A stretch of 64,000 nt of DNA from Lichenibacterium minor (GTDB lineage Bacteria; Pseudomonadota; Alphaproteobacteria; Rhizobiales; Beijerinckiaceae). The position numbers were made by a program, and so were the translations under genes. Where the stretch lies: assembly GCF_004137685.1 (NCBI RefSeq), contig NZ_QYBB01000016.1, positions 1 to 64,000 of the forward strand, given 5' to 3'. Shown here piece after piece: positions 5,272-55,245 of the stretch. The notes beneath the pieces were generated by a model. It worked only from the letters and a program-made list of their open reading frames with translations. It was not told the DNA's origin and did no database searches. Every line of letters starts with the position of its first letter. The first letter of the stretch is position 1.

Positions 5272-5762
5272 AGCCGGTGCTGCGCTCGGTGTGGGCCCCC
5301 AAGGGGCAGCGTCCGACAGCCCTCGGCCACCACCGCTTCCACTGCCTCTATGTCACCGCCTTCGTGGGCCCGTCCACGGGGGAGACGGTGTGGTACCTGA
5401 CCGACACCGTGTCCAAACCGCTGTTCGCCGGCCTGCTCGCCGCTTTTGCCGAGGCGGTCGGAGCCGGTCCCAAGAAGCGCGTCGTGCTGCTGCTCGACAA
5501 TGCCGGCTGGCACACCCTGCCCAACCTCGCCGTGCCCGATGGGCTCAGGCTCGTCCACCTGCCGCCCTATAGCCCCGAACTGCAGCCCGCCGAGACGCTC
5601 TGGACGCTGGTGGACGAGCCCATCGTCAACACGTTCGTCCCCAACCTGGACAAGCTCATCGACACCATCACCGAGCGGTGCAGCAACCTCACCACCCGCC
5701 AACCCGAGATCAGCTCCCGCACCAACTTCGCTTGGTGGCCCAAAAATCAGGCCCCGGTCTAA
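5178..5762 (+). CDS. IS630 transposase, C-terminal DDE frame
   Basis: The second frame of the IS630 transposase, meaningful from the A7 run onwards. It holds the catalytic DDE triad: FCTDEHRLGL (first Asp), LLLDNAGWH (second Asp) and PYSPELQPAETLW (Glu). All are intact, so the catalytic core looks functional if the two frames are joined. The only start inside the frame is a GTG at 5238, which falls within the first catalytic motif and would remove essential sequence. Independent translation is therefore unlikely, and expression probably depends on a -1 shift at 5176-5182. Confidence 0.75.
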   Translation, partial: KKLADVVAEEAAAHPGTPVEVFCTDEHRLGLKPVLRSVWAPKGQRPTALGHHRFHCLYVTAFVGPSTGETVWYLTDTVSKPLFAGLLAAFAEAVGAGPKKRVVLLLDNAGWHTLPNLAVPDGLRLVHLPPYSPELQPAETLWTLVDEPIVNTFVPNLDKLIDTITERCSNLTTRQPEISSRTNFAWWPKNQAPV

Positions 5763-5799
5763 TCTCGGGGATCTGGTATGACATAAAAATGTCATCGTT

Positions 5800-6384
5800 C
5801 TACTCAACCTCATCCGCGGCTAGTTTCAACCAGTTCGCTACGACCTGAGGTGTTGGAAAGTTCTCTAGGCCTCTTTTCGTAGCAGCGTGGCAGATGTTGG
5901 CTGCGGCTGGACTGTAATTCCGCTTGAAATTGTACTTTTCAACTGCCATTATATAAATAAGATTAGATAGGGAATTTCTCGATTTAGCATTTTCATTGAA
6001 GGCTTTTTCCAGTTTGGAGTTCTTTTGCTTTCTCGATCTGTATAGCTTTTTATACTTTTCCGCTTTGGTTTTCCAATCAATGATGGGGCTACCGGCATAG
6101 ATTAACTCCTTGAGTGCTTCTGGAACTGGAAGACCGGCAGAGAGTGCCCATTCTACGCGTTCTTTGGGTGTATCCGGACTCTGGATTATTCCCATGCTAC
6201 GAGCTCTAAACATCAGTCTTCGGAGCCTAAAAAAAGGCTCGCTTTTGTTGAGCTCTTCCTTAGCATCAGGATCGAGGCCCAAAAGAAGAGCCGCAGTCTC
6301 ACTGATATTCCATCCCGGGATTTTAGCCCAATAGCTGAGCCAATTATCTGCTGCATTTCCTAAAAAATCGTAATTATCAGGCAT
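5800..6384 (-). CDS. AT-rich orphan protein of unknown function
   Basis: A 194-residue protein trapped between the IS630 element and an IS256 remnant. The start at 6384 is well supported: GGAG lies seven bases upstream. The N-terminal third contains WLSYWAKIPGWNISETAALLLGLDPD, a Trp-rich pattern of a kind I associate with island-borne hypothetical proteins, followed by a basic central stretch (KAEKYKKLYRSRKQKNSK, probably a coiled-coil helix). The C-terminal part (FPTPQVVANWLKLA) resembles a helix-turn-helix end. The gene is much richer in A+T than its neighbours and uses Asn/Lys/Ile freely, a sign of horizontal transfer. No function is assigned; DNA binding is a guess. Confidence 0.6.
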   Translation of the reverse strand: MPDNYDFLGNAADNWLSYWAKIPGWNISETAALLLGLDPDAKEELNKSEPFFRLRRLMFRARSMGIIQSPDTPKERVEWALSAGLPVPEALKELIYAGSPIIDWKTKAEKYKKLYRSRKQKNSKLEKAFNENAKSRNSLSNLIYIMAVEKYNFKRNYSPAAANICHAATKRGLENFPTPQVVANWLKLAADEVE

Positions 6385-52700: not shown

Positions 52701-54085
52701 GATATCTGCCGTATGTCGCGGTCGGCGGTGCTCTCGCGGTCGGGGCTTTCCTGGTCCTGTTCCCCGAATGGGACCGGCCCCCGCTGGTGGCCGAGAACTT
52801 CGGCCCCGCCGGCCAGGAGCTCGTGGCCCTGAAGGACCCGCGGCGCGTGATCCCCTACAACGTGATCCCCGCCGCGCTGCCCGCCGCGCCCGCCGGCGGC
52901 CCGCTGGCCAAGGACGTGTACAGGAACGTCCAGGTGTTGGGGGACGTCCCCGCCGCGGAGTTCGACCGGCTGATGGTCGCCATCACCCAATGGGTGGCGC
53001 CCAAGCAGGGCTGCGGCTTCTGCCACAACCTGAAGCCCGGCGCCGACGGCGCCGTGAACTACGCCGACGACGCCATGTACACCGACAAGGTGGCGCGCCG
53101 CATGATCCAGATGACGATGAAGATCAACACGGATTGGGGCAATCACGTCGCCCCGTCCGGCGTCGTCTGCTACACCTGCCACCGCGGCGAGAACGTGCCG
53201 CCGCGCGTCTGGTACAAGCAGCCCACGCCCGAGCATTCCGGCATCCTGGGCAAGCCGCGCGACTGGCAGACCAACGCGCGCATGATCCGCGACTTCTTCC
53301 CCACGGCCGGCAACCAGCAATGGCTCGTGGACGACGAGGACGCCAACCTCGCCTCCAACGCCGCCATGGTGGGCGAGCGCGGCAGCGGCGTCGCGGCGGA
53401 ACAGACGGCCGAAAGCCTCTACGTGATGATGATGCAATGGTCGCAGGCGCTCGACGCCAACTGCGACCTGTGCCACGCGTCCCGCGCGCTGCAAAGCTGG
53501 CACGAATCGACCCCCTACCGGATGGACGGTCTGTGGGGCCAGTACATGACTCAGGACATCAACAAGAACTTCCTGATCCCGGCCACCAACCTGTTCCCTC
53601 GAAACATGCTCGGGCAGGTCGGCGATATCGGCAAGGTCGACTGTTACACCTGCCACCTGCAGCACCAGAAGCCGCTCGGCGGCTACAACGTCATCGAGCA
53701 CTACGGCATCCTGGCGCCGAAGGGCGTGTCCGCCGGCCCGGACCAGGGATTGCGCGACATCATGCGGCCGACGGAGGTCATCGGCCCGGCCTACGACCCG
53801 ACCGCCAAGGTGGTGGAGGTGTCGATCCCCGCCTGGCCGGCGCCCGCGCCGGTGGCGTCGGGTGCGGTGCCCACCGTCAAGGGCGTGCAGGTCGGCCCGG
53901 CCGTGGTGACGCCCACGGGCGAGCAGACCGGCGTGACGCCGGCCAGGATCGGCGCCCCCGTGTCGACCTCGACCGAGGGGACGCCGGGCCCAGTGGTCCA
54001 GCCTCCCGTCGACAGGGATGCGACGCCGGACGACGGCAAGCCGCCGATGAAGCCGATCGACCCCAGCACCGGGAAGGCGCCATGA
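52697..54085 (+). CDS. pufC: reaction-centre tetraheme cytochrome c subunit
   Basis: A 462-residue cytochrome that re-reduces the special pair from the periplasm. Four c-type heme sites are present: CGFCH (106-110), CYTCH (158-162), CDLCH (256-260) and CYTCH (316-320). The N-terminus is an uncleaved-looking anchor ([17 protein letters not shown]) with no lipobox Cys. After about residue 370 comes a Pro/Thr/Val-rich tail of about 90 residues that is not part of the heme domain. The stop overlaps the next gene (ATGA). Confidence 0.97.
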
Positions 54086-54489
54086 GCACCCGGACCCTCG
54101 ACGCGGCGCGGGGCGGCTCGCGCTTCCCCGGCCTGCTCGCCGCCGTTCTGGGATTCGGCTTCGCCGGCGCGGCGGCGGCCGCCCAGCCGATCCCGCTCCA
54201 GGCCGGCACCTATTGCGGGCCGGGCGACGCGCGCATCGTGGTCGACGTCGCCCGCGACCGGGTCGAGATCGACCACCTCGTGTGCTCGTTCCCCATCATC
54301 GCCGCCGACCACCTGCAGTCGGAACTGTGTTCCAATCCGGCCGGCACCAGCGACAAGCGGATCTTCGACTTCCGCGTGGTCGGGCGCGAGTTCATCCACG
54401 ATCGCGCCTGGTACCGCCTGTGCGGCCCCGTGCCGGCGAATTCCGCCGACCCGGACGCCGCGGCCCCCCCGGCGAAATCGGGCGGCTGA
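54082..54489 (+). CDS. secreted four-cysteine protein of the puf operon, unknown function
   Basis: A 135-residue protein whose ATG overlaps the pufC stop, so the two are translationally coupled. It has a signal peptide (residues ~15-34, LLAAVLGFGFAGAAAAA). The mature domain of about 85 residues has four Cys (45, 68, 83, 114), enough for two disulfides, and alternating strands (ARIVVDVARDRVEID, KRIFDFRVVGREFI). The tail is Pro/Ala-rich. No known photosynthesis family comes to mind. Its place suggests a periplasmic partner of PufC or of the reaction centre, for example in heme attachment or docking (inference). The next gene follows after three bases. Confidence 0.7.
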   Translation: MSTRTLDAARGGSRFPGLLAAVLGFGFAGAAAAAQPIPLQAGTYCGPGDARIVVDVARDRVEIDHLVCSFPIIAADHLQSELCSNPAGTSDKRIFDFRVVGREFIHDRAWYRLCGPVPANSADPDAAAPPAKSGG

Positions 54490-54492
54490 ACG

Positions 54493-55245
54493 ATGCCCGA
54501 TACGTCCGGCCGGGATCTGCTGTCGCGGCACGCGGCCTCGTTCGACGCGGCGGCCGACGCCTACGAGCGCGGGCGTCCCTCCTATCCGGAGGCGGCGCTC
54601 GACTGGCTGCTGCCGCCCGGCGCGCGCCGCGTGCTCGACCTCGGCGCCGGCACCGGCAAGCTCACGCGCCAGGTGGCGGCGCGCGGCCTCGACGTCGTCG
54701 CCGTGGACCCGTCCGAAGCGATGCTGGACCGGCTCCGCCTGGCCGTGCCCGGGGTGACGGCCCTGCGCGGCACCGCCGAAGCGATCCCCCTGCCGTCCGG
54801 CTCGGTCGACGTCGCGCTGGTCGCGCAGGCGTGGCACTGGGTCGACCCGGCCGTCGCCGTCCCGGAGGTCGCCCGCGTGCTGAAGCCCGGCGGCCGGCTT
54901 GGCCTGCTGTGGAACCACCGCGACGAGAGCGAAGGCTGGACGCGAAAGCTCGGCGCCCTCCTGGCGCGGCTCGGCTCCATGGAGGACGGCAGCCGCGCCC
55001 CCCGGGTCGGGCTCCCTTTCGGCCCGGTCGAGCGACGCGACATGCGCTGGTCCCAGCCGATCGATGCGGCGGAGCTGCTCGACCTCGTCGCGTCGCGCAG
55101 CTATTTCATTGTCCTGCCGGATGCCGAGAAGGCGCCCGTGCTCGACGACGTCCGCGCGCTGATTGCCCGTGAGCCGGGCTTCGACGGGGGCGGCTTCGTC
55201 CCGATGCCCTACGTCACGCGTTGTTCGCGGGCGGACCTCGCCTGA
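54493..55245 (+). CDS. class I SAM-dependent methyltransferase
   Basis: A 250-residue methyltransferase with motif I RVLDLGAGTGKLTRQVA, acidic motif VVAVDPSEAML, and post-motifs VDVALVAQAWHWVD and ARVLKPGGRLGLLWNHRDE. This is the Methyltransf_11/UbiE-like type acting on small molecules. It starts three bases after the four-Cys protein gene, at the end of the bch-puf run, and is probably transcribed with it. Substrate unknown; it is not one of the standard bch methyltransferases as far as can be read. Confidence 0.85.
   Translation: MPDTSGRDLLSRHAASFDAAADAYERGRPSYPEAALDWLLPPGARRVLDLGAGTGKLTRQVAARGLDVVAVDPSEAMLDRLRLAVPGVTALRGTAEAIPLPSGSVDVALVAQAWHWVDPAVAVPEVARVLKPGGRLGLLWNHRDESEGWTRKLGALLARLGSMEDGSRAPRVGLPFGPVERRDMRWSQPIDAAELLDLVASRSYFIVLPDAEKAPVLDDVRALIAREPGFDGGGFVPMPYVTRCSRADLA

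Follow-up and report, generated by a model that had tools for sequence, protein, structure and literature searches.

A rare four-cysteine gene overlapping pufC in one lineage of an alphaproteobacterial genus

As described in the sources cited, RC-S of Gemmatimonas is a lineage-specific extrinsic polypeptide of the reaction centre (RC) (PMC10214105, PMC12817894), located on the periplasmic face of the RC-dLH complex, where it forms hydrogen bonds to RC-M, RC-C and RC-L (PMC10214105). PufX is encoded, in many Rhodobacteraceae, by a small lineage-specific gene located at the puf 3' end; it replaces pufC and has a transmembrane helix (PMC6052148). The high-potential iron-sulfur protein (HiPIP), which is small and soluble, donates electrons to the RC in some bacteria (PMC7889895). 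Here we analyse an open reading frame (ORF) that follows pufC, the gene of the tetraheme RC cytochrome, in the first 64,000 nucleotides of contig NZ_QYBB01000016.1 of Lichenibacterium minor (hereafter, the window). This ORF (54082..54489, plus strand) encodes a four-cysteine protein of 135 amino acids that is probably secreted and has homologues in two further genomes, G013 and G145.

The ORF is a real gene. As a sequence-only reading had noticed, it starts within the stop codon of pufC: its ATG at 54082 and the pufC TGA (54083-54085) share a four-base ATGA overlap (54082..54085; plus strand, as for all window features below unless stated), and 135 codons later it ends in a TGA, at 54489. A Shine-Dalgarno-like GGGAAGG (54071..54077) lies within the 3' end of pufC, with the ATG four bases further on. 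Basic residues, a hydrophobic run of Ala, Gly and Leu and a cleavage region of the AXA type make up the N-terminus; judged visually and with a simple hydrophobicity rule, they form a probable Sec signal peptide of residues 1-34 (54082..54183; cleavage site inferred). This signal-like N-terminus suggests that the protein is probably exported, in agreement with the same reading. Four cysteines follow, Cys45 (54214..54216), Cys68 (54283..54285), Cys83 (54328..54330) and Cys114 (54421..54423), each aligned across the window, G013 and G145 sequences; the gaps between them are 22, 14 and 30 residues, and they may form two disulfides. The sequence-only reading had placed them in a small beta-rich domain. 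The four cysteines are indeed kept in the homologues, whereas the beta-rich fold is predicted at low confidence, with a mean predicted local distance difference test score (pLDDT) of 49.7 (strands only) and 45.1 (strands and one helix) in two AlphaFold2 single-sequence models. That reading also took the protein for an unknown one, which agrees with the libraries searched: neither the ORF nor its G013 homologue gave a significant match in Pfam, NCBIfam, PHROGs or PDB, and the ORF matched nothing in Pfam up to E 10. Such a protein is also not described in the available excerpts of PMC6052148 and PMC12654162, in a literature survey whose scope left out most subscription journals and preprints.

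Comparison with the congener G013 reveals that the protein is maintained by selection. The G013 homologue (L062:8344-8730) is 63% identical and occupies the same place after pufC; it begins with GTG in a GTGA overlap, has an open frame and retains all four mature cysteines. A four-base pufM/pufC overlap is likewise of the same kind in both genomes. In the mature part, 51 of 261 bases differ between window and G013, resulting in 22 amino acid differences. When the same substitutions were placed at random (20,000 runs), 34.5 +/- 2.6 amino acid changes were obtained and no run came down to 22; a stop was gained in 49% of placements, and all four cysteines were retained in 8%. The ratio of nonsynonymous to synonymous divergence (dN/dS) is 0.48 for the mature part, compared with 0.23 for PufC residues 1-345 and 0.52 for the PufC tail, in which dN is 0.30 versus 0.10 for residues 1-345. 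Given the small number of amino acid changes relative to random placement, and a dN/dS of 0.48 against 0.23, the ORF protein is under purifying selection that is weaker than that on the PufC body.

We sought further homologues in samples of 6 genomes of the genus, 199 of the family, 397 of the order and 385 of the class. Three of the 199 family genomes carry one, namely the window's own, G013 and G145, the stronger matches being judged by inspection; this covered 19 of 29 non-window loci for the family, 8 of 10 for the order, 6 of 6 for the class, L105 and L106 among L105-L109 for the genus, and 9 of the 18 lesser loci of a second family search. No convincing homologue besides that of the window's own genome was found in the order and class samples, where at most 10 candidates were scored per genome (at most 21 in the second family search); remote relatives may be missed because so few candidates were scored. 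Two further matches, G026 (E 9.9e-6) and G065 (E 3.1e-5), were rejected, as they contain internal stops and the cysteine pattern is missing. A scan for the four-cysteine pattern over 1.71 Mb of loci, of which G013 tiles made up 0.8 Mb, returned three matches: the ORF, its counterpart in G013 and an L147 reading that by eye is not a gene. There was no match among plasmids searched with the mature part of the ORF, among viral contigs searched with a two-sequence alignment, or in a contig search with the ORF itself, the last being a weak search because the G013 homologue contains none of the ORF's exact short patterns.

Within the genus, the ORF occurs in two of six genomes, only the two with a divergent PufC; the congener G111 has pufC, and a homologue of the ORF was not found in it. 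A PufC match is present in 50 of the 199 family genomes at E 1e-10 (one, in G189, is a remnant with stops), and the ORF domain in 2 of these 50 versus 1 of the 149 genomes without such a match. We also examined 58 other pufC-like loci, a set that includes an Acidobacteria cytochrome (L103) and a pufC with an in-frame stop (L078), by running a three-sequence profile over the downstream sequence to a maximum of 2 kb; 57 of them offer at least 400 bases of downstream sequence, and L057 offers 152. A homologue was found at the G013 locus only. The genes that follow pufC elsewhere vary, and include those for a PuhA-type H subunit (L063), a UbiA-type protein (L032), a heme oxygenase (L068) and an alpha/beta hydrolase (L066). 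At L069:4941-5609 and L076:3869-4537 (minus strand), the gene after pufC is rquA (NF038261), which belongs to rhodoquinone biosynthesis, and L070-L074 look similar by eye. Since one of 58 other pufC-like loci has the ORF domain, G111 lacks it and no PufC match was obtained in the genome of the G145 relative, we conclude that this is a rare four-cysteine domain linked to pufC in one lineage only. The sequence-only reading had suggested a new periplasmic partner of the tetraheme cytochrome or RC; a general partner of PufC is not supported, and its question of whether homologues always follow pufC is answered in the negative: the G145 copy shows no link to puf, and at most of the pufC-like loci examined none was found.

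In G145, a genome of another genus of the same family (85% complete; E 4.1e-5 in the family search), the four-cysteine domain forms the N-terminal portion of a probably secreted protein of 275 amino acids (L004:1000-1827, minus strand) which carries a second domain behind it. Pairwise, it matches the window at E 5e-8 and G013 at E 4e-12, and its mature part, compared without signal peptides, scores z = 12.0 and 15.1, respectively (5000 shuffles each). All four cysteines align, with 14 residues between the second and third and 30 between the third and fourth, as in the window, and 27 versus 22 between the first and second. By significant similarity and aligned cysteines, the ORF is thus a four-cysteine domain of the G145 type. 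The G145 contig carries relaxase (PF03432) and phage lysozyme (PF00959) genes. It should be noted that neither the absence of pufC from G145 nor correct binning is certain, because the genome is incomplete. When the order was searched with the full-length G145 protein, 28 of 394 genomes matched at E 0.001 (mostly at most six candidates scored per genome); among the matches listed, only that of the window's own genome meets the four-cysteine part (E 9.4e-4), and the others listed fall in the linker or second domain. Plasmids gave two weak matches to this protein, both to the second domain only (E 0.4 and 0.7), and phages searched with its four-cysteine part gave none. Homologues widespread in non-phototrophs would have spoken against a tie to puf; one homologue with no visible link to puf does exist, in G145, but homologues are not widespread in the samples searched.

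The puf genes upstream of the ORF in the window include pufB (LH1 beta, light-harvesting complex 1; PF00556; 50256..50492) and pufA (LH1 alpha; PF00556; 50503..50724), both named from order and sequence. PufA has a long Pro/Thr-rich C-terminal tail, for which the periplasmic face could be within reach. These genes are followed by pufL (PF00124; 50867..51706), pufM (PF00124; 51717..52700), which shares an ATGA overlap with pufC, and pufC itself (PF02276; NF040706; 52697..54085), encoding an RC cytochrome with four CxxCH motifs and a Pro/Ala-rich tail. A class I methyltransferase gene (54493..55245) begins 3 bases past the ORF and is not at the corresponding place in G013; its best match in each of five congeners is just 33-43% identical, over partial length. 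Next comes a convergent gene for a guanylate/adenylate cyclase-domain protein (PF00211; 55268..56476, minus strand), with an identity of 60-83% to its best homologue in each of the other five congeneric genomes.

A PufM tree was built with 55 rows (six loci were left out by name, short rows by length). In it, window and G013 share a long branch, separate from the congener G111, and are grouped (100/97) with the divergent second puf copy of G102, a meeting of long branches that the program warns may be false; the nearest other PufM row by path length is L102. In that second G102 copy (L063, G102:C156), pufC overlaps a PuhA-type H-subunit gene (5514-6275, minus strand) by four bases. An unusually fast evolution of PufC in the window lineage was not borne out: relative to the expectation from PufM, the mean residual of PufC divergence is -0.02 (s.d. 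among others, 0.046), and among pairs matched for PufM identity the PufC average is 37% in this lineage versus 41% +/- 5 elsewhere.

We tentatively put first the explanation that the ORF encodes a recruited periplasmic accessory of PufC or the RC which is made together with PufC. The lineage would have recruited the ORF from a rare family of secreted domains into the end of the puf operon. Ribosomes that finish pufC may then restart at the overlapping start codon by coupled translation, and the protein would therefore be made alongside the tetraheme cytochrome. It would be exported by Sec and folded through periplasmic oxidation into a domain of about 100 residues with two disulfides, and would serve as an accessory or as an assembly-stability factor. 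Its docking site would most likely be on the periplasmic face of PufC, the RC or LH1. We favour such an accessory because the four-base overlap (ATGA or GTGA) was kept while the pufC tail diverged (dN 0.30), because the ORF stayed by pufC while the gene downstream changed, because purifying selection acts on a protein whose four cysteines align in three sequences, because the genus has it only in the two genomes with a divergent PufC, and because lineage-specific extrinsic RC polypeptides such as RC-S provide a precedent. Several observations weigh against it. Downstream of 58 other pufC-like loci, the profile found the domain at G013 alone; in the G145 genome there is no PufC match, no puf neighbour was seen and no link to photosynthesis is visible. 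The agreement between window and G013 amounts to about one observation, because the locus is common by descent (PufM 95%), and PufC shows no sign of adapting to a new partner, since it does not evolve clearly faster than PufM predicts. As for docking, the structure models are of low confidence. A stronger version, which we consider unlikely, is that the puf operon captured a secreted domain which is otherwise found close to genes of mobile elements, and that this domain has since turned into a new extrinsic subunit on the periplasmic side of a divergent RC, made in step with the tetraheme cytochrome via the start-stop overlap.

Almost as probable as an accessory role is that the ORF encodes a secreted envelope protein which has no part in photosynthesis and is simply co-transcribed with the photosynthesis gene cluster, at whose 3' edge it ended up. 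On one side it has pufC, and on the other a cyclase gene that is also present in congeners lacking a PufC match; the only relative found outside the genus is one domain of a two-domain protein with no visible puf link, encoded on the contig that carries the relaxase and phage lysozyme genes, and G111 has pufC without it. Against such a passenger stand the start-stop overlap kept beside a diverged pufC tail, the place kept while the next gene changed, and the absence of any other convincing copy among the matches inspected in the six genomes of the genus. If this explanation is true, it cautions against inferring function from operon position. A helper in PufC maturation or folding, either a periplasmic chaperone or a thiol- or heme-handling factor that is not a subunit of the finished complex, would fit the pufC overlap, the probable export and the cysteine content. 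We regard it as improbable: a CxxC motif is expected in thioredoxin-like factors and the ORF has none, and at 57 of the 58 other pufC-like loci no homologue was found downstream. Least probable is a function like that of HiPIP or cytochrome c2, in which the protein would be a small soluble carrier of electrons to PufC. The protein is small, probably periplasmic and adjoins pufC, none of the six genus genomes has a HiPIP match at E 0.1, and in both L080 and L093 pufC is followed by a small protein that by eye resembles HiPIP. However, a carrier is unlikely because the ORF lacks CxxCH and its cysteine spacing is unlike that of HiPIP, with no C-x2-C; moreover, the genome of the G145 relative gave no PufC match.

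These distinctions can be drawn against the described systems. HiPIPs have four cysteines, C-x2-C plus two further ones; the ORF has gaps of 22, 14 and 30 and no PF01355 match up to E 10, nor does it have the CxxCH heme-binding motif of c-type cytochromes. The HiPIP-like small secreted proteins recognized by eye lie at L080:5565-5822 (plus strand) and after pufC in L093, and neither matched Pfam at E 0.001 (the L093 query lacked its first residues). A looser four-cysteine pattern brought up another secreted family, that of L030:1492-1902 (GAW...C...CRI...C...YxRC). At E 0.001 it is present in 25 of the 199 genomes of the family sample, and one member had no Pfam match up to E 10. Aligned with it by hhalign, the ORF gave 2.3% probability (E 0.021), over the signal region and edge only, in a comparison of low power because the ORF profile has just three sequences.

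In operon position, PufX is the nearest system. Unlike PufX, the ORF follows an intact pufC instead of replacing it after pufM, and its only long hydrophobic stretch is, by eye, the signal-like N-terminus, with no membrane-spanning helix past it; an identity as PufX was therefore rejected. Against PDB, phmmer gave one unrelated match (E 0.77) and the profile none up to E 10, in a set for which presence of the RC-S chain is unconfirmed. In the role that we propose, the nearest described system is RC-S. The likeness lies in this proposed role: the ORF protein, which differs in having four cysteines, could function in a similar way. The build of RC-LH1 complexes is shaped by extra proteins of particular lineages, among them PufX, protein-W and RC-S, and the gene overlapping pufC in this divergent puf lineage is a concrete further candidate.
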